Shown in pieces: positions 35,334 through 59,358 of a DNA stretch of 64,000 bases. The notes under the pieces were generated by a model. The model was not told where the DNA came from, did not search any database, and saw nothing but the letters and a program-made list of their open reading frames with translations. The translations under genes and the position numbers were made by a program. Location: assembly GCA_036874045.1 (NCBI GenBank), contig JAZBRI010000010.1:1570001-1634000 (forward strand), read 5' to 3'. Position 1 is the first letter of the stretch, and every line of letters begins with the position of its first letter. The DNA is from Cymodocea nodosa. Taxonomy: Eukaryota > Streptophyta > Magnoliopsida > Alismatales > Cymodoceaceae.

Positions 35334-36380
35334 TGTATTAAGAATTATATTTTAATGATGTGTGTAAAATATTAATTAATTTTATTTAATTAAATTAATT
35401 TTACTATTTAAGAAGTAAAATTAAAAACATCGATATATATAGAAAATATTTAAAAGTTATATATTTATCTGTATTAGATCATAAAATTTGTTAAGTTAAA
35501 TAACATGTTATTTAGTTAAACTAAATTTTATACAACTTGTCATTGAATTAATTTAATGTATTTTTATAATGTTAAGCATGATATGTTTTAAATCATATAA
35601 CTCATTAAGTTAACAATGTTACATTATAATTTATATTCAAGTTATATACTATAACTCATTGAGTTAGTATAACGTATGTATTGAATTTTATTTTACAAAT
35701 GTTATTAAATATCATATGAATTATACATGTTTAACTCGTTAAGTTAACATAACTACACATGTTGAGTTGCATATTTTAGTATTAAAGCAACATAAATTAT
35801 TATTGTAAAACATTTGATTTATATCACATGTAATTAGGTTAATGTTATAAAAACTTAAAAAGAGTTATTTTTGCTTGTGATAAATTATTATTGTAAAACA
35901 TTTGATTTATATCACATGTATGTCACATGCTAAATTCGTTAAGTTAGTCACATTAAGTTACAATTTTATATTCTATTATGCAATAAGTTAATATTAATGT
36001 AACGAGATGTTATTACACTTGATGAAAAATTTAGTCAATAATGTTTATTTTGCAAAGAATTTTTCAAATGATCTCGATTCATGAATTTTGAAAAAATGTG
36101 GAATAGAATATATGATTTTTATGAAAGACTAAGATTTTTTAAATTATTTCAAATTATGAATGAAAGATCAAAATTAATTAAGAAGGGCATGGATCTAGAC
36201 ATGAAGAGTGGATGTTCTTCAAGTCATTAATGAATGTGAAAGTGTGCATATGTCAATTATTGATTATTTAAGGCATGCATTTACATTGATCAAGTACGCT
36301 TACGAGATTAGAAGAGAATAGACCCTCACTCAAGCCTCTCAAAAATATTTCTCTCCAAGATTCTCAACTTTGGTGAAGAT
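35334..36380 (+). repeat. Diverged copia-type LTR, plus orientation
   Basis: It starts TGTATTAAGAATTATATTTT at 35334, then AATGATGTGTG, an old version of the copia LTR start at 9857. It is followed by the same sequence of GTTAAGTTA/TAACTCATTGAG motifs (35480-35960) and ATCACATG words. The 3' end (CTCAAGCCTCTCAAAAATA, 36315 onward) looks like an R/U5 region. It abuts the gypsy LTR at 36381. Confidence 0.55.
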
Positions 36381-37490
36381 TGTTTGGGTTTTTAGGCGAT
36401 ACTAGAGAACTTGATTAGTTCTCTAACAACGGTGTTAGAAAACTTGTTTGGATTTGTTAACTTCTATTTGTTAAGCTACACTAGAAACCTTATTTGATTT
36501 GTTTTTATGCTTATATCAATAATTCCTTTTAGAAGTAAACAAACAACCTTTCACACAAATTAAATATTAATTCCAATTTGTGCTTTATCTACAAGTGCAA
36601 AGTGTATATTGTATTTGTGTGCAAGTACAGGTCGATCCCACAGATATTTCAAATAGTAACCATTAAAATCTTTAAGTATCTTGAACGAATCAATTTCAGT
36701 AAACAATAAAATTATTTTCTATTTTCTGAATCAAACTAACATAAAACATTCACAATACTGATAATGATAACATTAATCACGATACAAAACAAATAATACA
36801 ACACTTAAATGCTAAATGCAAACATAGAAAATTTGTTGCTTTTGGTATTTTTGTTTTGATATGTTCCTAAAGATGAATGAAAGGTGAAATGTAAAAATCT
36901 CTATCGACAGTAAAAACTTCTATCACTACATGCGACGTGATTACACCACTGAAAACTTAATCATTTACAATCCTGCCTCCTCTCCCTATAGAATCGTGAA
37001 TCTAGAATTGTAAGATGATCTCCTCTTTAGCATATTGGCATCAACCGAAAACCAAGGCTAGAAGCTTTATGAGTCGGTGCTTAGTGAAAATGGCTTCCCT
37101 TCCCGCGACACGATCACTCTTCACAGTGGTTGTTAGTCACCATGTTTGGCTCGAAATCGACCCGACATTAGGAAAGTATCCTCAAAGACCTCTGATAGTT
37201 GGTGATTTTGGTGGTGGTGTGGAGTTTCAGGGAACTTCTAACACTTTCTACAGTTAGCACGGTCCTCCACCTTTGCACACACACTTTCTTCGTCTTTCTC
37301 CTATTCTTTTATATTTCTTTCTGTAGTAACTACTTCTGCTTAATTGATCGGTTGGATTTCCTTCATTCATATCAACAATGGTGATTTCTTCTTCATTTCA
37401 CGAGTGAATTCCTGCGTGATACGTGTGATCGTGGTTTTCCTTCGAATGTCATATTTCTACAACTACTACAGTGGCATATTAGAAGTGACC
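36381..37490 (-). repeat. 3' LTR (partial) of the older Athila-like element
   Basis: On the minus strand it ends ...CCCAAACA at 36381, the same terminus as the LTR at 62190, so TGTTT...AAACA are the LTR ends. The 5' half of the LTR is missing: at about 37490 mid-LTR sequence joins the element's 3' untranslated region. A further internal gap removes the hairpin block next to GATCCCACAGA (near 36640). The TATA word is at 37306-37315 (complement). Confidence 0.75.
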
Positions 37491-38007
37491 TTATATTTTA
37501 TTATTGACCTCGTGGAGTTAAGGTTAACTCAATAGACTTACTTCGTTGAGTTAACACTTAGCAAATTTCTAAAACTTACTTCTAGTATTAACTTCTATAT
37601 ATTTTTTCTCCTGCATTTTGTCAACTTAATTAATGTTAAATACATGTCATTAATGTAGTTTCTAATCTAACTCATTTAAATCTGAATATTATATGCATAT
37701 TTAACTTACAATTCATTTCCTGTTGTGTAGAAATTACATTTTACTTTTCAACAAGCAGATATATTCATACATTAACCAATTATCATGCATTTAATCATGT
37801 CATTCATAGAATTTGTAAATATTTTAAACAGTCTTACACATTGTTCAAATAGTTATATAATATTCAATATAGTTCATCAATTATATCATTCATTCTCAAA
37901 CACGAATGTAAAAACATCTGAAAAACATTCATTCATTTATATGAATAATTTACATTTACAGTATAAGTAATCAAAATTTTTTAATACAAGTAGATGAACA
38001 ATACATT
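37491..38007 (-). other. 3' untranslated region of the older element
   Basis: It begins with a GTTGAGTTA/TAACTCAAT hairpin (37505-37550), followed by AT-rich DNA nearly collinear with 47757-48282 in the younger element. No ORF. Confidence 0.6.
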
Positions 38008-40133
38008 TTAATCTTTCTTCCTAAGTTCATCTACTTCCTTCTAGAGTTTTTCTAACTGTTGCTTTAATTGATTTATCCTCTCTATAGCTCCTGTAATGCT
38101 TCCAAAAGGTTCAGATATCTCAGCACTAGCATAATTTCTGTATTATTTCACTGAAATGGTTCTTGATCTTATCCTTTTGAATGCCCATTTCATGAAATCA
38201 ATACTATCCACCATCAGTAGTGGAATCAGATTTCCATAAAATAATGTCTTCTTTGCAAATTTTAACTTGGAGATAAAAATTGAAGACCAATTAATTTGAA
38301 TTCTGTTCATAACTACATAGTGGCCCATTTGACAAATTGACTAAGTTCAATATCATGGCCTTGTCAATGGTAGACATTTTTAATCAAAATATTAGCTACC
38401 ATGTGTGCTTTACCATTTAAGTGCTTTAGTCTGTTTAATAATGGTACAACAGGATTGATAGCTAAACAGTCCTTTATTACTTGTTATGTTCACTCGACTG
38501 TAGTTGTGCTTTCTAAAATTTCTATTCCTTCATTTTTCAGTCTGAAAATATTGTGGAGAAGCTTTGGTGTTATCTGTATCTCAGCTTGCTCCACGTTGGA
38601 AATTAATCCACTTTCTTCTTCTCTCAAATTTGCATAGAAGTAGGACACTAGATTCTCATATACTACATATCCTCTCTACTAAGAAATAAATTGCAGTAGA
38701 CCCTAGAACTCAAATAAATCCTTAATTTCTTGCATCTCGTCCCAGTTTACTAGTCTACTGTAAATAATATCATAGCCCCTAATCTCTTGATATTTATTAT
38801 ATACATCCTGACTCCAAAAGTGTACTTCATTTCAAACTATTGCTTCAATCGGGTCAGGAATTTGCATTTGTTGCTCTAGAGGGGTTTGTTCTTGAATTTC
38901 TTCTTCCTCATGCTGAACTTGAATTTGCTGGAAATGCTCAACAGATTCCTGCATTTTTGCTTCTGTTTGTAGTGGAGAGCTAGCAGAACTCTCCACTCTT
39001 CTTTCTTCTTTCTCCTGACTACCAATCTGCATTGTCACTATTCTTTTTGATTCTATGGCAGATTGGGATGGAGTCACGGGCAAATCAACTTTTGCCCTAA
39101 TTTCAGATTCTTCTATTTGTATAGGCTGTAGACTAATTTCAGCCTATTTTTCTTCTTCTCCTTGCTTTTGCTGCTGTTGCTCTTGCTCATCATCAAATTC
39201 GGATAGTAGGTTTACAAAAATTGGCTCTATAGGTCCTACAGATATTTGCATCTTATATTTAATCTCTTCTTGAGGTTTAGACACTATCTCTTTTCATTTC
39301 CTTCTTCTAATTAACTGTGTCTGGTATTCCTCTTCTTCCTTTGAGATTAAATCTACAAAAATGGGCTATATAGGCCCTCAAGCCACAAGTACTAGCTCTT
39401 CTTGTTTTACTCTTTCTATAATTGTTGGTCTCGAAGGACCAACTTCCACTTCTCTTGCAGTAGGTATGGTAGTGGCTTCTTGAGGTTGTTCAACTTTAAT
39501 TTTATATTGGGCCTTCAACTTTTCTTCGACCCTCCTTTTGTGAAGTGCATCAAACACTAGATGTGCTTTAGCTACTGCCAAATCTTCTAGTTCTCCTTGG
39601 TTTTTTCTAACTCGAACCAGTTCTTCAAATTCTCTTAATTCTTCTTCAATAGAAGGCCCCATAACTACCACCCTTTCTAGTGGTTTAGGTGGTGGAACTG
39701 AAGGTCCTAGCTGTTGTTCCTCAGGAACTAGTCTTTTAGCAGTCGGCTTTGCAGTTGTAGGTTCTTCAGCTGCCTTTTGTTGTTGCCGTCGAATTACACC
39801 CCTTGCACAACTAGCAATTTCTGGCAAAAACCATAATCTAGCCTTGCGTTGGATTAACTCTAGGGCAACTTCGTTGGTTGGCTTGATTCTTCTCTCTCTA
39901 TTCACAGCAACTTTTGTTGCTACCTTAATCCTTGTCTCCACAATCTGAGGTATTTTTATGTCTAAATTTACTAAAACTTTCCTCTAGTAGAAAAGGTCAG
40001 ATTCTACCTTTTGTAGTTCTTTTTCCCTTGTTGTATTTTTGATCTTCTACCTTGTATGTCATTCTTCAAATTCTTTGAGAAATCTTGTCGTGTCAACTGC
40101 TTCCTCCCAAAACTCTGGCATCATCTTTGTCAT
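38008..40133 (-). pseudogene. Extra ORF in env position, older gypsy element
   Basis: Starts MTKMMPEFWEE at 40133. A Lys/Arg-rich N-terminal third contains NREVRRIKPTNEVALELIQRK-like sequence, first read as VNRERRIKPTNEVALELIQR (39950-39830). A long Glu/Gln-rich central part (39760-38850) looks disordered. The C-terminal third matches 48283-49100 of the second copy, including LFEF near 38720 and the motif VVMNRIQINWSSIFISKLKF (38310-38250). It resembles the plant transposon protein domain carried by Athila/Tat elements. Frameshifts and stops make it nonfunctional. The role of the family protein is unknown; its place after integrase is that of env-like ORFs. Hairpin clusters flank it (40300-40455 and 37505-37550). 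Confidence 0.7.
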
Positions 40134-40299
40134 TGTGGAGTAATGGAATGGAACAAAATTGCTCTGATCTATATTATTCTAAGTTCTAAATGAGTCTGCG
40201 AATAATGCCTCAAAATCCTAAGTTTTAGTATAAATAAACCCTAAGTTTTTAGCAGGTAATCAGGTCATTTTCCCGCACAAAACTCTCGCTCTCTCACTT

Positions 40300-40455
40300 A
40301 CCTCTTCGTGGAGTTACAGTTAACTCCACAGACTAAGTTCATGAATCTAACTATAATAATCCATTGAATTATAGTTAACTCAATAGGGTAAGTTCGTTAA
40401 CTTATCCTAGACTCAATGGAGTAAGTTCATTGAGTTAAGCGTAACTCAACAGACT
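40300..40455. repeat. Hairpin motif cluster upstream of the extra ORF
   Basis: Several paired words of the type CGTGGAGTTA / TAACTCCACAG, CCATTGAATTA / TAACTCAATAG and CATTGAGTTA / TAACTCAACAG in series. The same cluster precedes the second copy at 50695-50875. Confidence 0.75.
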
Positions 40456-40888
40456 TTCCGTAAAGTTATAACTAATAAAAATAATTAAAATAATAATTTG
40501 TACTTCGATCAAGATCGAAGAATTTCCGATCTAATCAACTCTTAATTTTTTAACATTTTAGAATTTTCGGTCAAACCGTTATATTCCTCGGTTGAATCGA
40601 AATTAATTACTCTCTTTTTTCTTACTAGTTGAACCGATACTATGCTTCGATAAAACCGCCATGTTTACTTAATATAATATATAGATTTTTTTTTTTTTAT
40701 GTTTCAGTCAAACCGATGGATCTTGTTGGTTGAACCGCAACAATTTTTTTCTTTTAATATATTTTTCGATAAAATCGATAATTCCTTTTGGTTGAACCGT
40801 GACTATGTTAGATTTCTTTTAATATACTAGGTTTTTTTTTTTAAAAACACTTAGATAATTTCTTACTAAGTAAAGCTTGAGTAGTCCT

Positions 40889-42895
40889 TGTTTATTGGTT
40901 TGTGAAAGGTTAGATCAGACAACTGGTTTAATTTGTCTTTAAGCTTAAATCAATAATTACTTTTAGAAGTAATCTAACAAACTTTCACACAAATTAGATA
41001 TTAATTCCAATTTGTATTTTAATTTCAAGTGCATAGTGTATATTGTATTTGTGCGCAAGTACAGGTCGATCCCACAGAGATTGAGTAAGAATTGTGTACT
41101 GTTCCAGTTTTAATAATGAAATTTATGTGTTTAGTAAGCACTCCGTTGAGTTATGGCTAACTCAACGGAGTAACCTCATGGACTTGAGTTAACTCCATGA
41201 GCCTATCTTTCTAGTTTAATACTGCTATTTACAAAGGAATTTGACCAACCATTAGGCGGTTCCACAGATTCTAAATAACATCAATTAAGCTCTTTAATGC
41301 TAGTTAATATTAGATTTATCATTAAACAACACTAACATTTAGATATTTCAAACAGTAACCATTAAAATCTATAAGTATCTCGAACGAATCAATTTCAGTA
41401 CACTGTAAAACTATTTTCTATTTTTTGAATCAAACAAACATAAAGCACTCATAATATTGACAATGATAACATTAATCATGATACAAAACAAATAATACAA
41501 TACTTAAATACTAAATGTAAACACAGATAAGTTGTTGTTTTTGGTATTTTTGTTTTCATATGTTCATGAAAATGGGCAAAAGGTGAAATGTAAAAAATCT
41601 CTATCAATAGTAAATACTTCTGTCACTACATGCAACACGATTACACCACTGAAAACTTAATCACTTACAATCCTGCCTCCTCTCCCTATAGAATCGCGAG
41701 TCCAAAATTACAAGATGATCTCCTCTTTAGCATACTGGCATCAACCTGAAACCAAGGCTAGAAGCTTTACGATCTCCTAAGATATGAGTCGGTGCTTGGT
41801 GAAAATGGTTTCCCTTCCCGTGATGTGGTCACTCCTTATAGTGGTTGTCAGACACCGTATTTGACTCGGAATCAACCCGACATCAGGAAAGTATTCTCAC
41901 AGACCTCCGATGGTTGGTAATTATGGTAATGTTGGTGAATTTTTGGTGATGGTGTAGATGCTTTAGTGAACTTCCGACGCTGCCTGCAGTTAGCGCGGTC
42001 CTCCACCTCTACACACACTGCCACCCACCACTAACCACACTTTCTTCGTTTTTTCTCCTCTTCTTTTATATTTTTCAGTAGTAACTACTTCTACTTAGAT
42101 GATCGATTGGATTTCCTTCATTCATATCAACGATGGTGATTTCTTCTTCCTTCCACGAGTGAATTCCTACATGATACGTGCAATCGTGGTTTTCCTTCGA
42201 ATGTCCTATTTTTGTAACTGCTACAATGGCATATTAGAAAATAAATGGTCCATGGAGTTGTAGATAACTCAACGGACTTACTTTGTTGATTTAACTATAA
42301 AACACGTGCAATAAAGAAATAAGCTGCTAACATAACACGCTACCTTAGTGTGTATTTATGTAACTCAATGTGTATAGTTATGCTAACTTAACGAGTTAAA
42401 CATGTGCATCTCACGTGATATATTAAAGTATTTAAATTCAACACGTGCATAATTCTAACTTAACAAGTTTAGATATTTTGGACACTTACGAACTTAACTA
42501 TTCGATGCCCAAATGCATTTCAAATAGTTAATAGATGACTTACCAAAAATTCACTTAAGTCATGCATTATGGTTTCAACACGTGTACTCTAGGAAATAAT
42601 AAAATATTCTTCTATCGTTAAAAACATAACTATTCGGTACATGCAATATAACTCTCCGAAATAACAGAAAATTTAGACACTAAAGAATTTCGAAGCCTGT
42701 AATTTACTGACAATTCAGAAATGTACTAAATTAACATTAATTCCCTAAAATTATGTAGATTCTTTCATTAATGCTTATAACAGTGCAATTATAACATAAT
42801 GACTTAATTCTCATATGATAAGCTAAATATTATGCAATTAACCATCATTTAATTGTTAATATTATGCACTTTTTCATTTTAAACACTTCCCCCAT
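40889..42895 (-). repeat. 3' LTR of the younger Athila-like element (2007 bp, complete)
   Basis: The minus-strand start TGTTTAAAATG at 42895 follows a purine tract (42896-42903). The end ...CAAACCAATAAACA is at 40889. The flanking pentamer GTCCT (40884-40888) is the natural continuation of the older element's integrase end (compare AGTCCT-GTACTC at 51236-51248), which marks the insertion point. The TATA word (complement of CTTTTATA) is at about 42063-42070. Hairpin motifs lie at 41140-41210, 42245-42300 and 42325-42468. Compared with the 5' LTR (62190 to the window end), it lacks about 80 bp near its 3' end but keeps a hairpin block of about 145 bp that the 5' LTR has lost. Confidence 0.85.
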
Positions 42896-42906
42896 ACTTA
42901 AATTTT
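42896..42906 (-). other. Polypurine tract at the 3' LTR
   Basis: Minus strand TATGGGGGAAG, directly abutting the TGTTT start of the LTR. This is the priming site for plus-strand DNA synthesis. Confidence 0.8.
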
Positions 42907-44192: not shown

Positions 44193-44756
44193 ATACCTAT
44201 ATTTTGCATTGTCCTCAATGTAAAAGATTTTACAATAAATATAGTAATTGTAGTAGCATGAATATTGTTTCATTGACTTAGCACCTAACTCAACGAACTT
44301 AATTCGTTGAGTTAATGAATAACTCTACGAATTGAGTTTAAATGTAAATTCAGGATAAGTAATCAATTACATACCTTGTCCTTTTGTATCTCCTTCAATA
44401 TCTTCCAATTTTTTATTTTGAAAAACTTTTCATTCACAAATAAAAGCAGAATATATAACAACATAACAAAATATAACTTGTTAAATCAGTGTCTTGTGTG
44501 GAACCTAGGCTCCTATACCTTTGGTGGCTCACAAGCAAGCTAGTTAGTTTCCTAGAAAAGATACCAATAAACTGGATTGATGTTTTGTTTTTTTTTTTTT
44601 TTTCCTTTCTTATAAAATAAAACTAAAACTAAAAATTTTTCTTTTTTTCTTTTTTTTAAAAAAAATAAATGCAGAATACACACAACATTAAAAGCATAGA
44701 ATCATAGTTTAAGAACATGATTGAAAAGTAGTAACAAATGGAATAAACGTGTTAGT
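44193..44756 (-). other. 3' flank of the F-box ORF
   Basis: It contains a hairpin cluster at 44278-44338 (TAACTCAACGAA / TTCGTTGAGTTA) and T- and A-rich tracts (44583-44670). No ORF. Confidence 0.5.
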
Positions 44757-45737
44757 TCATACAAACCTTTTAGGCATAATTCTTCTTGCTATTAATTCTG
44801 TTTTAATGCAGTTTGCTTTCCTTTTGAGCTTGTAAACTTGCAGTATGTTGTCAATACTAAATATAAGTGTATTTCCATTAATGAAATGAAATGCAGAAAG
44901 GGATCCTCTTCTATTCCAAGATAATGTAGCTGTTTCTATTTCTACATCTATTTCAATATATTCTTCTTCCCACTTCCATTCATTTAGGTCTTTTATAATC
45001 TATATTTGAAATTTCCTCAATTCATCCCACCATCTTATCAAACATAAAGTAAGATCATCATATTCATTATACCACATTCCTAATTGAATTTTATCATATT
45101 CTAAAGATAGTGGTTTAGCTATATCACTCGGTATAGGTAATATTTCTATAAAATCATCATAATTGTCTATGCTTACTATATATAAATCAGATCTAAATGC
45201 AACTGATATATTTGTGACTAGATATATATATCCATCAAGACAAACATGCATGCTGTTAATTAATGCTTTTTTTCTTAGATATATCATAGTATTTTCAGAA
45301 AATATTAAAGTTGACCCACAATTTTCAGTTGATACTTCATATCTATTAGGCCTTCCTATATTCCATTTTTCTCTTGTGATAGGATTTCTAATCAAAATGT
45401 TGGGTAATAGAATTGCATACCTTGGTTTGGTTCTGTATATAATTAATCCTTCATCCATCCTCATAATATGATTTATTCCTTCTAATGTATTAGGTGGAAT
45501 TCCAACAGTTTCTTCCATATTCAGATATTCATAATAGATTGAACTACGATTAAATGACTTCCATAAAAATCCATCTCTAATCTTAGTCAATTTTGCAGCT
45601 TGTAATCCATTAAAATATTTTTCTCTAACACAGACTTTGATTTCCTTTGATACACAAGACAATCTGCATAGATCTTTAGCTGACAGGTTACTTAATACTT
45701 CCCTCAATGCATCCAGTGGTAATTTCATCAATTCCAT
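44757..45737 (-). pseudogene. F-box protein ORF carried inside the gypsy element
   Basis: F-box proteins link target proteins to SCF ubiquitin ligases through Skp1. The frame opens at ATG 45737 (MELMKLPLDALREVLSNLSA). Residues 5-42 form a clear F-box: LPLDALREVLSNL, then DLCRLSCVSKEIK. Later parts have IRNPITREKWNIGRP and, after residue 245, a segment starting IIKDLNEWKWEEEY that resembles the F-box-associated domain of plant F-box proteins. The frame is 327 codons long and is interrupted only once, by TAG at 45000-45002, in a position where the family usually has Trp. An earlier start at 45830 is possible, but ATG 45737 fits the family. Upstream lies a possible acceptor (TGTTATACAG). The ORF sits between a decayed gag frame and the polypurine tracts, with hairpin clusters at 45800-45870 and 44278-44338. 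The gag next to it has about six stops in 447 codons. Amber-truncated, so possibly a pseudogene. A diverged host F-box gene flanked by repeats cannot be excluded. Confidence 0.75.
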
Positions 45738-45799
45738 CTGTTGTGATTCTGTATAACATAAACAAAAATTTAACAGAGACAAACTTAACATAGCTACTT

Positions 45800-45870
45800 C
45801 ACACCCTCGTGGAGTTAGGTCATAACTCAACGGACTAAGTTCGTTGAGTTAAGTAATAACTCTATGATAC
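45800..45870. repeat. Hairpin motif cluster between gag and F-box ORFs
   Basis: CGTGGAGTTA, TAACTCAACGGA, TTCGTTGAGTTA and TAACTCTATG words in series, the same design as at 47640-47755 and 44278-44338. Confidence 0.75.
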
Positions 45871-45957
45871 TACTAACTATAATTAAACTTACATTTTTTT
45901 TTCTTTTTATATTTTTTTACTTACTATATTATACATAGTTACTTCAGTTATATTGTT

Positions 45958-47298
45958 TCATTCAGCTACCCTCCTAAAGGAAGTATCAATTTCATTAATA
46001 GTTCTATTGACAAGGTTAGGTACTGCTTGCATTGGCAATCCTTTAGTAGATCTAACTTCTATTGATTCCTTTTATCTAGGAGGTATATTTTTACTCATAT
46101 TTTGATTTTGAATTATAGTATTTCCAAATACAAGATCTAGACGATTGTTTAATTGTTGGATTATCTTTTCTAATTTCTCTATTCTAGATCCTTATTCAAT
46201 TAAAGCTTCATAACTTATATTTTTGTCATTTATATTTTCTCCTCCCTGGAAATTATTGTTTCTCCAAGATAAATTTGGGTGATTTCTCTAATTAGGGTTA
46301 TAAGAATTTCCAAAGTTATCTTTCTGGTTTCTAGCATAAATAATATCTAAATCATTAATGTTTGCATTCTTTTCTGCTAGCTTTTGATTTAATGATAACC
46401 CTTCTATTTTCTTTGTTAATTTAACTTCAAGCATAGTGCTTGAATCTATTTTATGCATTCTCCTTGGCAATATTCTTTTATCTGTAATAGCTTCAGTCGA
46501 GTTTTCCCACTATGTAGTTCTTTTTGCAAAGTTTTCTGAATATGCCCATGCTTCTTCACTACACAGTTTTAAAAATCCATTCTGACAAGTAGATTCTAAT
46601 AAAGATTTTGTTGAAACATCTATGCCTTCATAAATTATACCGATTAATTATGCTTTACTCATTGCATGATGTGGGCATTGAGTCAGTAAATCTTTAAATC
46701 TTTCAAAATATTTCTAGAATGATTCTCCCTGTTTTTGGCTACACATTAATATTTCCTTTTTCTTTTTAATCGTTTGATGTGTTGGATAATATTTTTCTAG
46801 AAAAATAGAGTAAAATTTAGTCAATGTAGAAATTGAATCAGGCGATAGAGTATATAACCATCTCTTAGCTGTGTCTTTTAAAGAAAAAGGGATATATCTA
46901 AGTTTAATAACATCTATACTCATGTTCGGCATTTTCATCATTTGACAAACTTCGTTAAATTCTCTAAGGAAATAATAGGCATCCTCTCTTTCTAATCCAT
47001 GAAAATGTGGCAATTAACTAATATAATTAGATTTCAGTTCAAACCTATCTCCCTCAAAGTTTGGCAATCGAATATATGAAGGTTCATCAACTAATTCAAG
47101 ATACAGAATTTCCCCTAATGGTTTCTCTACTGGAGTAGCCATATCTTTGTTCTCTTTTAAAGAAAGGTTAGCTATACCCCTAAGGATTTCATTAAAGTCC
47201 AATTCAGAAAATTTTTCAATACGTCTTTGTGTTGAATAATCCTGTGTAGGTGTTCTTACTAATTGTTTAGTGCTAGGAGAATGAATCCATGTGCTCAT
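45958..47298 (-). pseudogene. Gag-domain ORF, placed downstream of pol
   Basis: Starts MSTWIHSPSTKQLV at 47298 and stays in one frame for 447 codons with about six premature stops. The retrotransposon gag domain is clear: PHFHGLEREDAYYFLREFNE, then IKLRYIPFSLKDTAKRWLY (46890-46830), then FYSIFLEKYYPTHQT, then KYFERFKDLLTQCPHH, then LIGIIYEGIDVSTKSLLE. A RNHPNLSWRNNN block follows (about 46290-46250), as in Athila gag proteins. The C-terminus has a short coiled coil (SRIEKLEKIIQQLNNRLD). No CCHC knuckle was found. Its place after integrase and the extra ORF is abnormal: gag normally leads the element. It may come from another nested element or from a rearranged copy. Confidence 0.8.
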
Positions 47299-47473
47299 AA
47301 ACTCTTAACATAAAGTAAAATAGTAGAAGATTAACTACATACTAGTTTGAAGCTTTATATTTAGTAAATAGTTGTTGACGGATGAAGTTGAATCAACTAC
47401 TTCTCCTTCCATTTCCCCAACGAATTTTCTTTTCTTCTACAAGTGTTGGTAACTAGTAAATAACATGCTATTC

Positions 47474-47639: not shown

Positions 47640-47830
47640 ATTTAGCTTAATCCACGAACTAACCTCGTTGAGTTACAGTTAACTCAACGGACTAGCTTTG
47701 GTTACTATTGCTAACTCCATGGACTAACTTCGTTAAGTTACAGATAACTCAACGGAGTAACCTTATATTCTATTATTGACCTTGTGAAGTTAAGGTTAAC
47801 TCAACGAACTTACTTTGTTGAGTTAACACT
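47640..47830. repeat. Hairpin motif cluster between extra ORF and gag
   Basis: Words in series: CTCGTTGAGTTA / TAACTCAACGGA, CTCCATGGACTAA, TTCGTTAAGTTA / TAACTCAACGGA, then TTAACTCAACGAA / TTTGTTGAGTTA. At about 47757 the sequence becomes collinear with the older element (37491). Confidence 0.8.
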
Positions 47831-48282: not shown

Positions 48283-50538
48283 TTAATCTTTGCTCCTAAG
48301 TTCATCTACTTCCTTCTAGAGTTTTTCTAATTGTTGCTCTAATTGATTTATCCTTTCTACAGCTCCTGTCATTCCTCTAGAAGGTTCAGCAATCTCTACA
48401 ATAGCATAATTTCTGTATTCTTTCACGAAAATGGTTCTTAATCTTATCCTTTGGGATGCCCATTTCGTGAAATCAATACTGTCCACCATCAGTAGTGGAA
48501 TTAGATCTCCATAAAATAATTTCTTCTTTACTGCTCTCAGCTTGGAGATAAAAACTGTAGACCAATTTATCTGAATTCTGTTCACAACTGCATATGTGGC
48601 CCATTTGACAAATTGACTTAGTTCTATATCATAGCCTTGTTGTTGGTAGACATTCTTAATCAAAATGTTAGCTATCATGTGTGCTTTACCATTTAAGTGC
48701 TTCAGTCTATTTAATAATGGCACACCAGGATTGATAGCTAAACAATCCTTTATTATCTGTTCTGTCCACTCGACTGTAGTTGTGCTTTCTAGAATTTCTA
48801 GTTCTTCATTCTTCAATTCTAAAATGTTGTGGAGAAGCTTTGGTGTTATCTATACATCAGCTTGCTCCACGTTGGAAATTAATCCTCTTTCTCCTTCTCT
48901 TAAATTTTCATAAAAGCAGGGCACTAAATTCTCATATACTGCATGCCCTCTCTGTTGAGAAATAAACTACAGTAGACCTTGGAACTCAAATAAATCCTTA
49001 ATTTCTTGCATCCCGTCTCAATTTACTGGTCTACTATATATGATATCATAACCCCTAATCTTTTGGTATTTATTATATACTTCCTGACTCCAAAAGTGTA
49101 CTTCATTCAAAACTGTTGCTTTAGTCGAGTCAGGAATGTGAATTTGTTGCTCTAGAGGGGTTTGTTCTTGAACTTCCTCTTCCATGTGCTGAACTTGAAT
49201 AGACTGAAAATGCTCTGAAGATTTCTACCTTTTTGCTTCTACTTTTGTTTATGGTGGTGAGCCGGTAGAACTCTCTACTCTATCTTGAATTCTTTCTAAA
49301 ATTTGCTGAAGAGTTCTTTGCTCTTCAATGGAATCTGTCGAGTCATTTCTTTCTTATTCCATTTGTATTTGTTCAACTTCTTGTTTAGTTTCTTCTTTTT
49401 CTTCTTCCTCCTGACTACCAATCTACATTGCCACTATTCTTTCTGATTCTGTGGTAGATTAGGATGGAGTTACGGGCAAATTAGCTTTTGCTTTAATTTC
49501 TGTTTCTTCTACTTGTACAAGCTGCAGATTAGTTTTAGCCTATTTTTCTTCTTCTCTTTGCTTTTGCTGTTGCTGCTCCTACTCATCCTCAAAATCAGAT
49601 AGCAGGTTTACAAAAATTGGCTCTATAGACCCTGCTGATATTTGCATCTCAGATTTAATCTCTTCTTGATATTTAGGCACTATCTCTTTTCCTTTCCATT
49701 TTCTGATTAATTGTGTCTGGTCTTCTTCTTCTTCTTCTGAGATTAAATCTACAAAAATAGGCTCTACAGGCATTTGAGCCACAAGTACTGGCTCTTCCTA
49801 TTGAACTTTTTCTGTAGTTGCTAGTCTCGAAGGACCAGCTTCAACTCCTCTTGCAATAGGTCTGGCAATGGCTTCTTGATGCTGTTTCACTTTAATTTTG
49901 TATTGGGCTTTCAACATTTCTATAACCCTCTTTTTACACCATGCATCAAACACCAGATGTGTTATAGTTACTGTTAACTCTTCTAGTTCTCCTTGGTCTT
50001 TTCCAATTTGAACTAATTCTTGAAATTCTCTTAATTCTTCCTTAATAGAAGGCCCTAAAATTGCTGCTCATTCTAACATCCTTGGTGGTGGAACTGAAGG
50101 TCTAGGCTGTTGTTCCTTAAGGACAAGACTTTCAGCAGTCAGCTCCTCTTGTTCTTCAGTTGCCTGTTCTTCATTTTCTTTCCTTTGTTGCTCCTAGATT
50201 GCCCACTGAACCTGTCTACTTATGCGTGTTTTGAACCAGAGTCGAGACTTACGTTGAATCAATTCTAGGGAAACTTCGTTATTTAGTCTGATTTTTCTCT
50301 CTCTGTTTACAGTAACTTCTGTAGCTACTCTGATTCTCGTTTCCATAATCTGAGGTATTTGTATACCCAAATCCACTAACACTTTCCTCTAGTAGAAAAG
50401 GTCAGATTCCACCTTTTGTAGCTCTTTTTCTCGTGTTGTATTTTTGATCTTCTACCTCATGTGTCATTCCTCTGAATCTTTAAGAAATTCTGACATGTCA
50501 ACTACTTTCTCTCAGAACTCAGGTGTCATCTTCCTCAT
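48283..50538 (-). pseudogene. Extra ORF in env position, younger gypsy element
   Basis: Starts at the ATG at 50538 (MRKMTPEF). Basic N-terminal part (VATEVTVNRERKIRLNNEVS, about 50340-50280), Glu/Gln-rich middle, and a folded C-terminal part: GYDIIYSRPVN, MQEIKDLFEFQGLL, LVPCFYENLREGERGL, HNILELKNEELEIL, LLNRLKHLNGKAHMIANIL, AVVNRIQINWSTVFISKL, LIPLLMVDSIDF, ending in a coiled coil (INQLEQQLEKL). The last 166 residues (48816-48316) are uninterrupted. Most stops sit where Trp or Gln codons would fit. It resembles the plant transposon protein domain of Athila/Tat elements. The whole block 47757-51245 is a second copy of 37491-40888. Hairpin clusters flank it. Function unknown. Confidence 0.75.
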
Positions 50539-50694: not shown

Positions 50695-50875
50695 TCATCT
50701 GTGGAATTATGGTTAACTCCATGGACTAAGTCCATGGACTTAACTACAGTACTCCGTTGAGTATAGTACTCCGTTGAGTTATAGTTAACTCAATAGGATA
50801 AGTTTGTTAACTTATCCTAGACTCAACGAAGTAAGTTCATTGAGTTAAGCGTAACTCAATGGACTTCCCATAAAG
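50695..50875. repeat. Hairpin motif cluster between integrase and extra ORF
   Basis: GTGGAATTA / TTAACTCCATGG, ACTCCGTTGAGT (twice), GTTAACTCAATAGG, CATTGAGTTA / TAACTCAATGGA. Downstream (50930-51190) lie CGGTAA..CCG and CGGTTGAACCG words like those of the 7200-7958 array. Confidence 0.75.
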
Positions 50876-51222: not shown

Positions 51223-52881
51223 CTAAGTAAAGCTTGAGTAGTCCTGTACTCTTACTTCTTCTATAATTCCAAAAGAACTTTTTGGTATTTTCAAAATAGG
51301 TCTAAGTCTTTGTCCATTTACTTTAAATATATTCTAATTTTTAGGATTTTCAACTTCAATAACTCCATAGGAATAAATATTTCGAATTATGTAAGGTCCT
51401 GCCCACCTAGATCTTAATTTTCCTAGATGGTTATGGAGTCTAGTCATGTAAAGATATACTTCTTGTCCTATTTCAAAGGTTTTTAGAATAATTTTCCTGT
51501 CATGCTAGAACTTGATTTTCTCTTTTTCTCTTATAGTTTTCGAATAAGTTTCATTCCTAAATTCTTCTAATTCAATCAATTGTATTTTTCTATTCTTAGC
51601 AGCTTGATTTAAATTAGTGTTCAGAGTATTTAATGCCCAATAAGCTTTATGTTCAATTTCAACTAGTAAATGACAACTTTTTCCATATACTAGCCTAAAA
51701 GGTGACATACCTAAGCTTGTATTATAAGTAGTTCTATAAGCCCAAAGTGCATCTATCAATCTATTAGCCCAATCTGTTTTAGTAGGATTTATTACTTTTT
51801 TTAAGATTAACTTAATTTGTTTGTTTGCACTTTCTACTTGTCCACTTGTTTGCGGATGATATGATGTTGCAATTTTGTGGTTTACTCCATATTTCTTCAT
51901 TAAGGCTTCAAAACTTCTATTACAGAAATGAGTTCCTCTATCACTGATAATAGCTTTAGGTATTCCAAATCCAGCAATTATATTGGTTCTTATAAAATGT
52001 ATTACCACTTTATTGTTATTAATTTTTATAGGAATAGCTTTTATCCATTTAGATACATAATCCACCCCCAACAATATATAATTAAATTGATTAGACATAG
52101 GAAATGGACCCATAAAATCTATTCCTCACACATCAAAGATTTCAACCTCAACAATAGGATTAAGAGGCATCATATTCCTCTTTGATATTCTTCCTATTTG
52201 TTGACATTTTAAACAACTTAAGCAATATTTATGAGCATCTTTGAATAGTGTTGGCCAATAAAATCTACATTGTAGAATTCTAGCAACAGTTTTCCTTGAA
52301 CCAAAATGCCCTCCACATGCTTGGTCATGGTAGAAAGGCAATATGCTCTGATATTCAGTTTCTAGAGCACACCTCCTTAAAACCAAATCAGGACATTTCT
52401 TAAATAAGTATGGGTCTTCCCAATAGTAATATTTTACTCTTGAAAAGAACAATTTCTTATCCTGTCTATTCCAATCCTTAGGTGTTAAACTAGTAACTAA
52501 GTAATTCACTATGTTTGCATACTAAGGCATCGTGTTGATGGTCATTAATTGTTCATTAGGAAAATTATCCTTAATTTCAATATTTGATTTTTTTATTTGT
52601 AATCTTGATAAATGATCTGCTACTATATTCTCACAACCTTTTTTATCTTTAATTTCTAGATCAAATTCTTGTAATAATAATATCCATCAGATCAATCTAG
52701 GTTTGGTCTCTTTCTTTGCTATTAGGTGTTTTAAAGTTGAATGATCCGTGTATACTATCACTTTAGCTCCAATCAAATATGATCTAAACTTTTCTAAGGC
52801 AAACACAACAACTAACAACTCTTTTTCAGTAGTTGTGTAATTAACTTGAGCATCATTTAAGGTTTTTCTTGCATAATGAAT
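51223..52881 (-). pseudogene. RNase H and integrase of the younger Athila-like element
   Basis: Resumes at 52881 directly after the copia 3' LTR, in the middle of RNase H ([20 protein letters not shown], then [10 protein letters not shown], then ADHLSRLQ). The integrase HHCC region is at about 52340-52200 (HDQACGGHFGSRKT, then CLSCLKCQ), followed by ISKRNMMPLNP, typical of Athila/Tat. The catalytic core keeps its residues: first Asp in GIDFMGPFP, second Asp in ISDRGTHFCN, Glu in SGQVESANKQIK. The C-terminus has FKVNGQRLRPIL and ends at TAG (51223-51225). Frame is constant from 52881 to 51223 with about five stops (at RLI, TMP, FDV, IKF, PKN). Integrase inserts the cDNA into the genome; this copy is inactive as it stands. 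Confidence 0.88.
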
Positions 52882-54381
52882 TGTTAGGACCTTATGGCTT
52901 ACCAAAGGGGGGTGAATAGTAATAATTTGTTTCTTAGCCTTTTAATGGTAGATTGATATAAAGAATTAGCAAGCACACGATAAAAGAAAACACATAGAGA
53001 TTTTAAGTGGTTCACCACTAACGGCTAGTCCACCCCCAAGGGATACTTGGGCTTCACTAAACTTTCACAAACTTACAATCACTTGCTTTAAGGTTAAAGC
53101 AAGAACCAACCATTCACTTGAGCTTTCTGGTTGTAGCTCCAACCAATCTTTCTCTGAAGTTTTGATCCGTGTACTTCAATAAACACTAGCTTGAAATTAT
53201 CAGAGTTGAGTGCATGATGAGCTTCTGAAATTGAGTTTGTAAATGTTGAAGATGATTTGATCTCTAAGGCTTTCTTCTATTGAGTTTGGTGTAAATATAT
53301 GTATGAGCAAAAGCTAAGCTAATTTTGTTGTCTGTAGCTTGTATATATACTAAACATGTGTAACGATCATATTTTTCTTTCAACGGATGTATTCTATTGT
53401 ACTTGATCAGATTTCAGTCCCAAATATGGTAAGTTACCGTTTAGGAAGATATTTCAAGATATCCTTCCGATTTTCTCAATCTTTCGGATAGTTAGGTGTG
53501 TAACTCTCTGAAGGATGTTTGTAACTCACCGAAAAATCACTTAAGTCTTTCTGCCATGTAGTATTTTAGATCGTACAATGAGAGCTGTCATTCAATTGGA
53601 TACTTGCAGCTGTAACTTACCGAACTGTTATTTAATTGTCGGATAGTTAGCTACAGTAACCCTCTGAAATCCTTCATTAAGTTTCCGACTACTTTATTTA
53701 ATTCAGCACGTGCATAATAGACTAACTTAAGTTTCGGATGGTTATACCTATAACTCACTGAAACGCTTCAAGATTTCGAATAGGTAACTCCAGTAACTTT
53801 CCAATTTTCCTTTTAAGCTTCTGTTTGGATTTCTGCATGTGGGAAATTCAATGACATAAGCTTCGGATGGTTATTCCTGTAACTCACCGAAACTCTTCAA
53901 GATTTTGGATAGTTAACTCCAGTAACTTTTCGATTTTCCTTTTAAGCTTCTGTTTGGATTTCTACACGTGGGAAATTCAATGACTTAAGCTTCGTATAGT
54001 TATTCCTATAACTCATCGAAACTCTTCAAGATTTCGAATAGTTAGCTCCAGTAACTTTCTAATTCTTCATACATCCATATTTCTAACTCTCCAAAAACCT
54101 TCTAACTATTGGATACTTAATCTTCTAACTGTCTGATTGTATTGCTACTGCTTTATACTACCTTTCGGATACTTAGACTGTTAACTCACCGAAAATATTT
54201 TTCTTTCAGATAGTTAAGCTTGGTAACCTTCTAAAGTCCTTTTTATCACTTGCAGCATACTTTGAACTGTATGTATCAACTTTTGCTCTCTTGTTGACTT
54301 CTTGCTGACTATTACGCTTGAGAAATACAATTTAAAACCTCACATTGATTTTTGCATTATTGAAATCTAGAGGTCCTTTCA
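52882..54381 (-). repeat. 3' LTR of the nested SIRE-like copia element (1500 bp)
   Basis: On the minus strand it starts TGAAAGGACCTC at 54381 after a purine tract and ends GGTCCTAACA at 52882, directly inside the gypsy RNase H codons. It holds many CGGATAGTTA / TAACTCACCGAA pairs (53480-54240) and a tandem array at 53736-54066. The part shared with the 5' LTR differs by roughly one base in 15 to 20 by eye. Confidence 0.88.
53736..54066. repeat. Tandem array in the copia LTR, period about 126 bp
   Basis: About 2.6 units. Landmarks TTAAGCTTCTGTTTGGATTT at 53814 and 53940, each followed by a CGGATGGTTA / TAACTCACCGAA pair. Confidence 0.8.
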
Positions 54382-54395
54382 ATCTCCCCCTTTTT
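54382..54395 (-). other. Copia polypurine tract
   Basis: Minus strand AAAAAGGGGGAGAT next to the LTR start. Confidence 0.8.
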
Positions 54396-54736
54396 GATAA
54401 TGTCAAAAACCTTACAATATATTACATGTATTTCTCTCCCTATATATCTATACAGAAAGGCACACAAGGAATACAAAATAATGAAATTTAGAAACTCTCC
54501 CTATTTTTCTGAGATTACTCTCCCTGAGTTTCTCCTCCTATTTTATTGTAGCCTGCTACCAAAATATGGTCTTTCTCTCCCTTTTTTGCTGATTATCAAA
54601 AGGAGTGAGAAGTAAGATACTGACTTGGTGGAGCAATTATAGCTGATTATCAAAAGAATGACTAAGTTGCTACAAAACAGAGATGTTAGTTGAACAAGCT
54701 CCTAGTTGTGAGCTTGGAGAGTAGAGAGATATGAAA
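54396..54736 (-). other. 3' untranslated region of the copia element
   Basis: Repeated CAAAAAGGGGGAG-like and GGGAGAG purine words on the minus strand, as found between pol and 3' LTR in SIRE-type elements. No env-like ORF is present here. Confidence 0.6.
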
Positions 54737-56527
54737 TTATAAATCATATAAAGAGCAAATCCCTAAATTTTGTCTAATATGATTAAATGCAAATTTAGAT
54801 AATTGTTTGGTGAAAATATCTGCAAGTTGTTCTTTAGTAGAGACATATTCTAAGGAAATATGACTTTTTTCAATATGGTCTCTTAGAAAGTGGTGCCTAA
54901 TCTCAATATGTTTTTTTCTAGAGTGTAAAACTGTATTTTTGGAGAGATTGATGGCACTGCTACTGTCACAGTAAATAATGGTATTTTGAAAATTTAGCTT
55001 ATAATCTGCTAGAGTTTGTTGCATCCATAAAATCTGTGCACAACATAGGCCTACTGCTATATATTTAGCTTCAGTGGTGGATAGAGCTATAGAGTTTTGT
55101 TTTCTGTTGAACCAAGAAACAAGTGAATGACCAAGCAACTGACATGTCCCACTGGTGCTTTTTCGATCTAATTTGCATCCTGCATAATCTGCACCACTAT
55201 ATCCTGCTAATATCAAATGATTTTGTGAAGAATAAAATAAGCCAAAATCTTTGGTACCCTGTAGATATTTAAATATACGTTTAACTACTTTTAAGTGTGA
55301 TGCTTTTAGAGAGGCTTGATATCTTGCACAAGTACAAACACTAAACATTATGTCTGGTCTACTAGCTGTTAGATACAGAAGTGATCCAATCATGCCTCTA
55401 TATTTCTTTTGATCTACTGAAATGCCAGAGATGTCCTTATCAAGTTTTTCATTTGAGTTCATGGGAGTACTTGCTACTTTGGATTTATCCATACCAAATT
55501 TTAAGAGAATCTCTTTGCAAAATTTTTCTTGATTTAGGAAAATGCCATGCTGAAGTTGATGAATTTGTAATCCTAGAAAGAATTTTAATTCTCCCATAAG
55601 ACTCATCTCAAATTCATTCTTCATTAAGATTTGAAAATCATGACATAGTTTCTCATGTGTAGCACCAAAAATGATATCATCCATGTAGATCTGAATAATC
55701 AACATATGAGAACTTTTTGATTTGATAAATAAAGTGTTGTCTGCAGTTTCTATGTTAAACTGATTCTCAAGAAGGAAACTCTTCAATTTATCATACCATG
55801 CACGTGGTGCTTGCTTCAAACCATAGAGAGCTTTATTCAGTTTGTATACATGGTTTGGTCTTTCTTCATCTTCAAAACCTAGTGGCTGTTGTACATATGC
55901 TTCTTCTTGTAGAATGCCATTAAGAAATGCACTTTTAACATCCATCTGATAAAGCTTGATTTTCATACTACTTGCAAAGGCAAGCAACATTCTAATTGCT
56001 TCAAGTCTTGCAATAGGTGCAAAATTTTCTTTATAGTCGATTACTTCCTGCTGGTTATATCCCTAAGCAACAAGTCTAGCTTTATTTCTAATAATACTGC
56101 CATTATTATCAAGTTTTTTCTTAAACACCCATTTAGTTCCAATAATTGATTTTTCGATGAGCCTTTCAATTAAATTCCAAACTTCATTTTTCTTGAACTG
56201 ATTTAGTTCCTCTTGCATGGCCATGATCCAGTATTCATCATTACAGGCTTCTATAACTGTTGAAGGTTCAAGTTCAGACACAAAATCATAATAATTACAA
56301 ATATTTTGAATTTTGCTTCTTGTTTGAACACCTTGATTTATATTCCCAATAATTTGTCCAATGGGATGTCCAGACTTTGTCTTCCATGCTTTTTCTGTCA
56401 TAGTAGGTGTAGGCAGTGTTGAACTATCCTTATTTTGAGGAATTTTTTGATTTATTGATTCACTTTCACTATCTATTTTTAGCTTCTTCAATTTTTCTAC
56501 CATGTCTTCATCAAATGATACATTCAT
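54737..56527 (-). pseudogene. Copia reverse transcriptase and RNase H
   Basis: The connector and RT start (56527-56063) read GVQTRSKIQN, then EACNDEYWIMAMQEELNQF and GTKWVFKKKLDNNG. One stop follows KARLVA at about 56063. The remaining 417 codons (55990-54737) are open: [20 protein letters not shown], then AFLNGILQEE, then LYGLKQAPRAWYDKL, then the catalytic loop YMDDIIFGAT, then ELKFFLGLQIHQL and SRPDIMFSVCTCARYQ. RNase H follows with GADYAGCKLDRKSTSG, a TEAKYIA block, YCDSSSAINLSKN, KKHIEIRHHFLRD and EQLADIFTKQL. This is the best preserved pol in the window; with the 5' frameshifts it is still not functional. Confidence 0.9.
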
Positions 56528-57770
56528 TGACTCTTCTACTCTTCTTTCATGTTCAAAATAGACCTTGTAAGCCTTGCTTCTCGAAGAGTATCCAACAAGT
56601 AGAGCAGGATCAGACTTTGCATCAAATTTGTCCTTTTGATCCTTAGTATTAAGTACAAAATATCTTGATCCAAAGACTTTGAAATATCCAACATTTGGTA
56701 TTTTACCATACCATAATTCAAAAGGTGTCTTATGTAGGATAGGTCTAAGATGAGTTCTGTTTATAGAGTAACATGCAGTATTTACAACTTCAGCCTATAA
56801 AGACTTTGGTAGATCAGATGCATTAAGAATTATCCTTGCCATTTCTTGTACTGATCTATTTTTCCTTTCTACAACTCCATTTTGTGTAGGAGTTCTTGGA
56901 CATGAGAATTCATGCAGTATGCCAAAGGAATTGCATAATTCTTCAAATTCAGAATTTTCAAATTCACCTCCATGATCACTTTTGATCTTCTTCACAGTCG
57001 ATTCTTTTTCATTTTGAATTCTAATACAAAGATGTTTGAATTCAGACCAGGCTTCATTCTTGTGTGTTAAGAAAATAACCCAAGTGAATCTTGTATAATC
57101 ATCAACTAGCTGTTTGTGTAGGACCAAATAGGTCCATATGCAATAAATCTAATGGTTGATGTGTGGCAATGTCTTCAATACACTTGTGTGTTAATTTCTT
57201 TTGTTCTCCAATTGTATAGTCACTACATAATTTATCTCTCTTGAATTTGAGCTTAGGCACACCTCTAACAAGATCATGTTTGGTCAATTCTCTTAGAAGT
57301 CTCATGTTCGCATGATTAATCTTTTATGCCATAACCATTCATCTTCATTAGAAGCAACTAAACATGCATCACTAGATATATTATCACATGGAAATTCCAA
57401 AGCATAAATTGAATTATTTCTATATCCAGTAAATTTGATTTCATGTGTATCCTATTGTAATATAAAATAGTTTTCTGTAGTAAAGAGTATACTGTAAACT
57501 TTGTCACATAATTGACCTACACTTAGCAGATTCTATTTTAAACCATTTACATGTAAGACATTTTCTATTTTTCCATTTTTAGATGCAACATTTCCTATGA
57601 CAGTAATTCTACATTTTTCATTGTTATCAAACTTAACAAATCCTGAATTTATTGATTTAATAGATTCTAGAAATCTTTTCTTACCTGTCATATGCTTTGA
57701 GCATCCACTGTCAATAATCCACTTGGACATTTGAGCTTTCTTGTCCATGCAGTCCTACAAATCATGTTGA
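56528..57770 (-). pseudogene. Copia protease and integrase
   Basis: Protease: WIIDSGCSKHMTGKKRFLES (57725-57665), with the DSG triad intact. The GAG-pre-integrase part (57305-57102) is in another frame. A deletion and frame change near 57110-57130 removes the residues between HMDLFGPTQTAS and DDYTRFTWVIFL. The integrase core otherwise keeps Asp (KSDHGGEFEN, about 56980) and Glu (VVERKNRSVQEMAR, about 56870). A short frame slip lies near 56720-56790. So catalytic residues remain but the frame is broken. Confidence 0.85.
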
Positions 57771-57983
57771 AATTAAGACTTTTGGTACTCATTTTTTCTT
57801 GGGTCTATCAATGTTAGTCCTTTGTATATTGAACCTGTTGCCTTTTGGTAGCCATATAGAAGTAGATCTCTTCTTAATGACAAAAATAGTTGTGCCATCT
57901 CTATAAGATCTAATTTTTCCACCATAGTAGAGAATTTCTTGTGGTACAGCATACCCAAGGCCAAATTTACTTCTTCCTATTCT

Positions 57984-59306
57984 TTAGGATCCTATGATTT
58001 TGTTTAAACTATTTTCACCTTTAGTAAATTTACATACAGTTTTCTTTAAATTAGTAACTTCAGATAACAGATTCTTATTTTCTTCTTTCATATCAAAATT
58101 TTTACAACTATAGCTATCCATTTTAGTTTTTAATTCCCTATTATCAACTAGGGCTTTTTCTAATTCAGCAAAAACATCTTCTAGATAGGAATTTAAACTC
58201 TTTAATTCTTTCTTATACTTCTTACATTTTACATATAAGTTATCTACTATATAGAGAAGACTATCTATATCTACATCATCATTTTCCTTTTCTGAGCAAT
58301 AAGGAGATGTAGAGCATACCTCTTGTGCAGCAAAACACACATTTGCAAATGCCTCTTCATCTGAGTCTAATGAGCTGCTGGATGAACTGCTGTCATCCCA
58401 TGTGGCTTTCTAAGCCATTTTCTTCTTGTTCTTTCTCTTCCATTTTTGTTTGTCCTCCTCCTGTTGAAAAGGATAGTAAAATTGAATGTGTCCTAGTTTC
58501 TTGCACTTGTAGCATGTAGGGACTTTTGATCTTGAGGAGCTGGCTTTACCTCATTGTCTCATCATATTTCTGAAATTTCTAGCCAGCAATAACACTTCAT
58601 CATCATCCGAGCTTGGTTGGTCTTCTGTTGAAGGAAAGGCTAGTTCTTTCTTTTTCTCAGCCTTTCTTTCAGTGACTCCTTCTTTCCATTCCTTCATTTG
58701 GACTTCATGGGCCAGAAGATTTCCCAACAGATCTTCAACCGAATAGTTGTTCAGATCCTTTGAATCTTGTATGGAAGTAGACTTCTGCTTCCATTCGACT
58801 GTCAAGCTTCTTAGGATCTTTTGTACATGTTCACGATTAGAAAAACTCCTTCCAAGGCCTCTTAGTTCATTCACAATTTCTGTGAATCTAGAAAACATTT
58901 CAGTAATACTTTCTTTTTCAAGCATTTTGAATAATTCATATTTTCTTAACAAAATGCTAATTTTAGTATCTTTAACTTGGCTTGTTCTTTCATATGTAAT
59001 TTGAAGGATATTCTAAGCTTCATGAGAGAATTTACAAGCTGATATTTTATTATACTGTTCACTAGTTAGTGCATAGTAAATGGAATTAAGCCCACGAGCA
59101 TCCATCTAGATGATTCTTTCATCCTCTTCAGTCCTGTCACTTTCATGATTGATTGGAATTGGTGTACCATGTACAACCATTCTCTAGAGTTTCACATCTG
59201 TACTCTTGAGAAAGTATTCCATCCTATTTTTCCAGTAGCTATAATTGCTACCATCAAATAGGGGAGGTCGATGGATATTCTGATCCTCTGTAGTGTAAAA
59301 AGCCAT
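57984..59306 (-). pseudogene. Copia gag of the nested element
   Basis: Starts MAFYTTEDQNIHRPPLFDGS at 59306, close behind the primer binding site. One frame runs to 57984 with a few stops at usual Trp and Gln positions. Blocks: NRMEYFLKSTDVK, QYNKISACKFSHEA, QVKDTKISILLRKYELFKM, then QKSTSIQDSKDLNNYSVEDL shared with the plus-strand element. The zinc knuckle (about 58515-58475) reads CYKCKKLGHIQFY-Y, so the fourth ligand Cys is Tyr. A coiled-coil-like linker (58340-57984) precedes the protease. Confidence 0.88.
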
Positions 59307-59344
59307 GATCTCAGATGGTTAAATCTATTAACGAGATCAACATT

Positions 59345-59356
59345 GCTCTGATACCA
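59345..59356 (-). other. Copia primer binding site (initiator tRNA-Met type)
   Basis: Minus strand TGGTATCAGAGC, two bases after the LTR end. Matches the plant copia consensus. Confidence 0.92.
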
Positions 59357-59358
59357 AT

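Follow-up and report, generated by a model that had tools for sequence, protein, structure and literature searches.

The F-box gene described here is almost certainly an integral part of an Athila-like retroelement family of high copy number, which carries it as a standing, spliced accessory gene. It lies in a window, that is, the whole analysed stretch of 64,000 nucleotides from Cymodocea nodosa, and further copies were sought in the genome (374.6 Mb in 28 contigs).

The F-box frame and the element that carries it

In the window the F-box frame runs on the minus strand from its Met at 45737 to 44757 and comprises, in translation, 327 codons including the final stop, with one internal amber codon. 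The preliminary description had placed an F-box ORF inside an Athila-like retroelement, on the strand of the element and between a gag frame and the polypurine tract. Both the domain and the placement are borne out: the ORF matches Pfam PF00646 with E=1.9e-10 (40.7 bits, curated cut-off 20.5) and sits within an Athila-like LTR retroelement, on the element's strand. The features of the window copy are listed below in the direction of the element.

62254-64000, minus strand: 5' LTR, cut by the window end; the inner end is a reading of the sequence (LTR comparison)
62226-62246, minus strand: primer-binding site, tRNA-Asp-like, mutated (5 mismatches to the tRNA-Asp complement; shuffles at best 8)
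61265-62062, minus strand: 5' ORF with a CX2CX4HX4C knuckle (by eye), without a capsid match in the domain scan
60332-61048, minus strand: protease (Asp_protease_2, E=0.0051, below the curated cut-off)
52879-59974, minus strand: nested Copia element, outside the F-box unit (its two LTRs are 93.6% identical)
51505-52521, minus strand: integrase, two open frames (rve, E=1.8e-11 for 51505-52125)
48316-48849, minus strand: extra ORF after the integrase, a relative of PF20167 (Transposase_32 in the L049 copy, E=6.8e-6, below the curated cut-off)
47343-47436, minus strand: last part of the upstream exon, whose frame runs on into the F-box once spliced (422-codon joined frame of L002)
45749-47342, minus strand: GT-AG intron of 1,594 nt that holds the capsid ORF (GTATGT start, ATACAG end; absent in L002 and L009; 49 junction copies)
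45958-47298, minus strand: gag capsid ORF, 7 internal stops in the window copy (Retrotrans_gag in the L047 copy, E=1.4e-19)
45738-45748, minus strand: 5' end of the F-box exon, 11 nt ahead of the Met (comparison with the spliced copies L002 and L009)
44757-45737, minus strand: F-box ORF, one internal stop, decayed copy (Pfam PF00646, E=1.9e-10; translation)
42886-42899, minus strand: polypurine tract, abutting the LTR start at 42885 (sequence)
40900-42885, minus strand: 3' LTR, low-coordinate end approximate (LTR comparison)
44267-44338, 45807-45867, 47648-47826, 50762-50863, 62522-62610, 9624-9710, 11787-11897 and 22870-22931: sites of a palindromic motif in the window

The window copy is decayed. 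Compared with the copy L018, its F-box frame lacks 108 nt internally (in frame) and 48 nt at the end; no reverse transcriptase was identified in it, and this domain is present in the relative L035. The single amber codon had been set against the many stops of the neighbouring frames, and the contrast with the seven stops of the gag frame holds for this copy but is partly local to it: among copies chosen by F-box similarity we counted 54 stops in the F-box frame (30 copies of 378 codons) and 102 in the gag frame (22 copies of 420 codons). The LTRs of the window differ by a K2P distance of 0.128, if both belong to one element, and the LTR pairs of two other copies by 0.070 and 0.088. The primer-binding site shows 3 mismatches to the tRNA-Asp complement in L031 and 6 in L049, numbers that likewise lie below the 8 of the best shuffle.

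Some other features of the window are recorded here. A second fragment of the same kind of element occupies 36380-40888, where the LTR is joined straight to the extra region and the gag/F-box part is missing. The short palindromic motif, around TAACTCAACG/CGTTGAGTTA, occurs scattered in the LTRs, in the extra region and on either side of the F-box. Within the nested Copia element a 129-bp unit stands in three tandem copies (53689-54075), and plus-strand hAT-like transposase frames are found at 5262-6804 (hAT-like RNase-H, E=1.5e-9 for 5819-6409). Rfam gave nothing in the window at the gathering score.

An F-box protein picks what the disposal machinery of a cell destroys, and F-box/FBA proteins are SCF receptors. 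In open copies of our element the F-box lies near residues 4-42, and it was found in all seven open copies and in L051. The F-box-associated-like C-terminus of the preliminary description stands as a resemblance: TIGR01640 is matched weakly by the window copy (E=0.0058) and better by three open copies (E=3.4e-8 in L028, 33.1 bits; 2.4e-7; 5.9e-5), and FBA_1 by 2 of the 7 open copies (best E=0.0012), but every TIGR01640 score stays below the curated cut-off of 37.9. As far as these domain matches tell, the protein resembles plant F-box/FBA proteins and is probably an SCF ubiquitin-ligase adaptor.

A search of 5.8 billion proteins, which reaches only proteins with shared short exact words, gave no relative of the F-box at E<=0.001, either with the window ORF (129 candidates) or with an alignment of seven copies (2,696 candidates). 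For the integrase, searched in the same way, 7,744 of 7,975 scored candidates were relatives, many of them unnamed, plant integrases of that kind being there in thousands. No relative of the F-box protein was found in viral contigs, and the PDB yielded nothing with the window ORF and five weak matches with the seven-copy alignment (E=0.38 or worse). A host donor gene of the F-box was not found among the 150 of 6,236 candidates scored in the genome search.

Genomic copies, the intron and the capsid gene

The protein search of the genome gave at least 299 matches to the F-box (150 of 6,236 candidates scored), and those shown, the window excluded, are 80-88% identical. A 29-nt pattern over the intron end and the F-box start occurs at 1,380 sites (730 + 650) and its reversed control at none. 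The first survey took 10 F-box copies together with flanks of at most 10 kb on the upstream and 6.5 kb on the downstream side, and in all 10 the F-box is followed by the 3' noncoding block and an LTR. Upstream of it stand the extra region in 9, gag in 8 (2 partial) and integrase in 7 (1 partial); the protease is found in 6 copies, and 2 have a 5' LTR together with its primer site. These counts are limited by stretch length, insertions and deletions. When 30 copies were viewed with 1.5-kb flanks, gag and F-box were in line over ~1.4 kb or more in 20, two were spliced and eight were interrupted or rearranged upstream.

The copies of both surveys were chosen by their F-box. The second sample consists of 10 elements chosen by their integrase. 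They are spread down a list of the best 150 of 10,397 candidates, of which 149 lie outside the window. The F-box follows gag in 9 of these 10, although in one of them it breaks off after 61 nt; the remaining element has LTR sequence alone at the F-box offset. The order of integrase, extra ORF, intronic capsid gene, F-box, polypurine tract and 3' LTR is fixed. The genome thus confirms that several element copies carry the F-box at the same place. The notion of a single locus, or of ordinary host DNA, fails with an F-box common to many element copies, and a nearby host gene is excluded by the counts of the copy surveys. The preliminary description had also suggested recent capture; this is unsupported, because three subfamilies ~12% apart carry the F-box.

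Two contigs deserve a separate remark. On C2 (8753701-9653497) eight F-box start sites lie on one strand with the same rare variant and spacings of 60-226 kb, a cluster which appears to be local amplification rather than independent insertions. On C1 three element 5' ends (9103259-9224181) recur ~523-527 kb further on (9626110-9751043), with identical printed sequence and the same strands and order; this repeat looks like either a segmental duplication of large size or a duplicate in the assembly.

Among the first 30 copies two, L002 and L009, are without the whole gag block. Unspliced copies have a GTATGT donor (47342) and, 1,594 nt away, an ATACAG acceptor, the end of which at 45749 is 11 nt ahead of the F-box Met. 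The donor GT is there in all 6 unspliced copies where the site was found, and the acceptor AG is kept in 22 of 28. The junction pattern occurs at 49 genomic places (19 + 30; control 0), which is ~3.6% of the unspliced count, and these 49 copies lack exactly the intron and are joined at the predicted junction. L002 and L009 are separate events, because their acceptor variants differ. Therefore, spliced element RNA has returned to the genome through reverse transcription dozens of times, and the F-box is an exon. Each spliced copy directly documents which RNA underwent splicing and reverse transcription.

Both forms, gag-bearing and gag-less, are present in more than one subfamily. The joined frame of upstream exon and F-box in L002 is open over 422 codons from stop to stop, and every one of the 30 copies viewed retains the Met with which the F-box starts. 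The spliced unit L031/L032 has GTCAC on both sides, a 5-bp target repeat given our reading of the LTR end. Two other gaps in L031, one from protease to integrase and one in the extra region, were considered as further introns and rejected; they are without GT-AG ends.

The capsid ORF, its own Met included, lies wholly inside the intron, and an open stretch of this frame in L047 gives the Retrotrans_gag match listed above. In the 7 of 10 F-box copies where the integrase was found, the capsid domain is downstream of it, except in copies 0 (spliced) and 5, where gag is missing. The 5' ORF, which starts some 60 nt past the primer-site region (an arrangement matched exactly at 490 sites, 243 + 247; control 0), shows no capsid domain in the scanned pieces. 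According to the accessible text of PMC6317226, plant Ty3/gypsy elements have the order GAG-PROT-RT-RH-INT. The F-box element, with its capsid behind the integrase, does not follow this order; next to the F-box itself, the intronic, displaced capsid gene is what sets it apart from the usual Ty3 layout.

Proposed function and selection on the F-box frame

The capsid gene is carried by the unspliced RNA, and in the spliced RNA the upstream exon is joined to the F-box. We propose that the former most likely serves for capsid and polyprotein, and the latter for the F-box protein. The domains suggest that the F-box protein would join SKP1 and CUL1 as an SCF substrate receptor. In the least certain step it may mark a host restriction protein for degradation, and this protein would most likely belong to RNA silencing or to chromatin repression. 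Translation of an F-box deep inside the RNA would need a further upstream splice or an internal promoter. Taken together, an integral spliced accessory gene and an SCF adaptor make a combination that we consider likely. A host restriction factor as the target is conceivable by analogy, with the balance rather against it. This guess at the target class is informed by the anti-silencing VANC proteins of VANDAL transposons and by polerovirus P0, an F-box protein that is encoded by a parasite and targets AGO1. The likeness to P0 is that of a parasite-encoded F-box protein; P0 is viral and is likened by protein kind alone. An anti-silencing role of our protein is speculation. Even more tentative is the complete picture, in which a host F-box gene was taken as a standing weapon, with a retrovirus-like splice switch between the intronic capsid and the F-box exon and an adaptor that would remove a silencing or restriction factor. 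If this picture were true, we would be dealing with a retroelement that encodes an SCF substrate receptor and has its layout rearranged, the capsid moved behind the integrase into an intron.

One would argue that the SCF adaptor degrades the element's own capsid or integrase and so limits copy number. Since splicing leaves the RNA with the F-box exon free of the capsid ORF, the two could be balanced. However, more than 1,000 copies argue against an efficient brake, and we regard such self-control as unlikely.

It is less probable still that the F-box is a functionless passenger, a host gene which an ancestral element took up on one occasion and which has been copied with the element ever since. 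This would agree with the fact that just 7 of the first 30 copies, in two subfamilies, are open over at least 345 codons, and with constraint that is weak or missing in some comparisons. A codon model in which internal and terminal branches each have their own omega speaks against it: in 38 copies the F-box omega is 0.27 on internal and 0.40 on terminal branches (2dL 9.7), and an internal omega of 1 is rejected (2dL 107). The C-terminal part of the F-box protein, which was not used to select copies, gives 0.33/0.51 (internal/terminal; 2dL 6.5). In 8 integrase-chosen copies the difference is not significant (0.33/0.43, 2dL 0.54), and the 11 copies of the first sample show none (0.37/0.39, 2dL 0.07), the N half of the F-box in these 11 being just short of significance (0.19/0.29, 2dL 3.5).

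The same model gives 0.26/0.53 for the capsid (2dL 16.7), 0.18/0.63 for the integrase (2dL 5.9) and 0.29/0.48 for the extra ORF (2dL 2.5, not significant). The noncoding controls show no such difference (3' block 0.60/0.69, LTR 1.12/0.90), and fits in wrong frames gave 2.02/0.95 for frame 2 of the F-box and 0.79/0.74 and 1.53/1.00 for gag. Left out of the codon fits were the shifted frame 1 of the F-box (unconverged, negative 2dL) and gagZn (116 stops, frame probably wrong).

Because the decay of methylated C biases omega, we calibrated on noncoding variants. Private changes of the F-box are then near neutral (0.82 of neutral; C part 0.99), as against 0.57 (C-B, 30 N : 16 S) and 0.42 (S-B, 11:8) of neutral in two of three subfamily comparisons, which again argues against a mere passenger; the third comparison, C-S, shows no constraint (1.28 of neutral, 21 N : 5 S). 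For gag the private changes are at 0.70 and the S-B difference at 0.26 of neutral (7:8). By codon position, private F-box differences are evenly spread (124:103:117), subfamily differences amount to 19:9:19 (C-B), 7:1:10 (S-B) and 12:8:7 (C-S), and a two-group split of 8:3:10 is not significant. Among the indels, 3 of 4 shared ones and 3 of 13 private ones have a length divisible by three. Copies open over at least 350 codons are present in three subfamilies, which also tells against copying without function; L051, from the third, is open over the 377 codons covered. These comparisons suggest that modest purifying selection keeps the F-box frame in active lineages. The preliminary idea of selection is supported to this modest degree, though some comparisons show none.

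The remaining explanations deny the splicing or the element itself. If the gag block had been inserted between exon and F-box in some lineages, the gag-less copies being the older, both forms could well occur in more than one subfamily; however, the block spans GTATGT to ATACAG, copies that differ in their acceptor variants lack it precisely to the base, and gag-less junctions number 49 versus 1,380, so that we find this very improbable. An ordinary host F-box gene lying between retroelements by chance, for which the domain itself and nothing more would speak, is hardly credible with the F-box at the same place in 9 of 10 integrase-chosen elements and with 1,380 start-site copies.

Known counterparts and meaning of the finding

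Sense additional ORFs between pol and the 3' LTR (env-like; Athila, Bagy2) are described for plant LTR retrotransposons in the accessible text of a review, which also reports splicing for Bagy2 (PMC7264820). Our element is among these known additional-ORF retrotransposons; what is new, and sets it apart from the elements in that text, is the F-box product and the capsid gene within an intron. It shares the tRNA-Asp primer site with Athila and has a retrovirus-like trait, a GT-AG intron removed from element RNA, as seen in genomic copies. The word F-box is absent from the accessible text of this review and of a Retand survey (PMC11963269), and a search by title and abstract start, with a literature scope short of most subscription journals, found no report of an F-box gene resident in an LTR retrotransposon.

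Diaspora, Calypso and Athila, as far as the available part of PMC1142308 describes them, are large Ty3/gypsy elements with a primer site for tRNA-Asp, and env loss via reverse transcription of spliced RNA was proposed for this lineage. The F-box element resembles them as a large Ty3/gypsy element with such a primer site, and the proposed event is of the kind seen here in 49 copies. In contrast, their gag and pol form one ORF with gag first, whereas here the capsid is behind the integrase. Ogre elements also have an intron inside the element and, in the accessible text, splice part of their transcripts only (PMC6317226). VANDAL transposons, in the portion available of PMC13317346, counter silencing with VANC proteins, and some copies carry an Ulp1 domain. 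In both cases a mobile element of plants carries an extra gene from the ubiquitin-like pathway; VANDAL is a DNA transposon with an Ulp1 protease, ours is an LTR element with an F-box, and anti-silencing is shown for VANDAL alone.

Additional ORFs are common in plant LTR retrotransposons, but many of them are without a recognisable domain, which is part of the reason why their function is an open question. Here the F-box domain is recognisable, thus the target should be findable through F-box biochemistry. Should this target turn out to be a silencing factor, the viral F-box suppressors would have a cellular counterpart in the element; should it be the capsid, the F-box would be a built-in brake.
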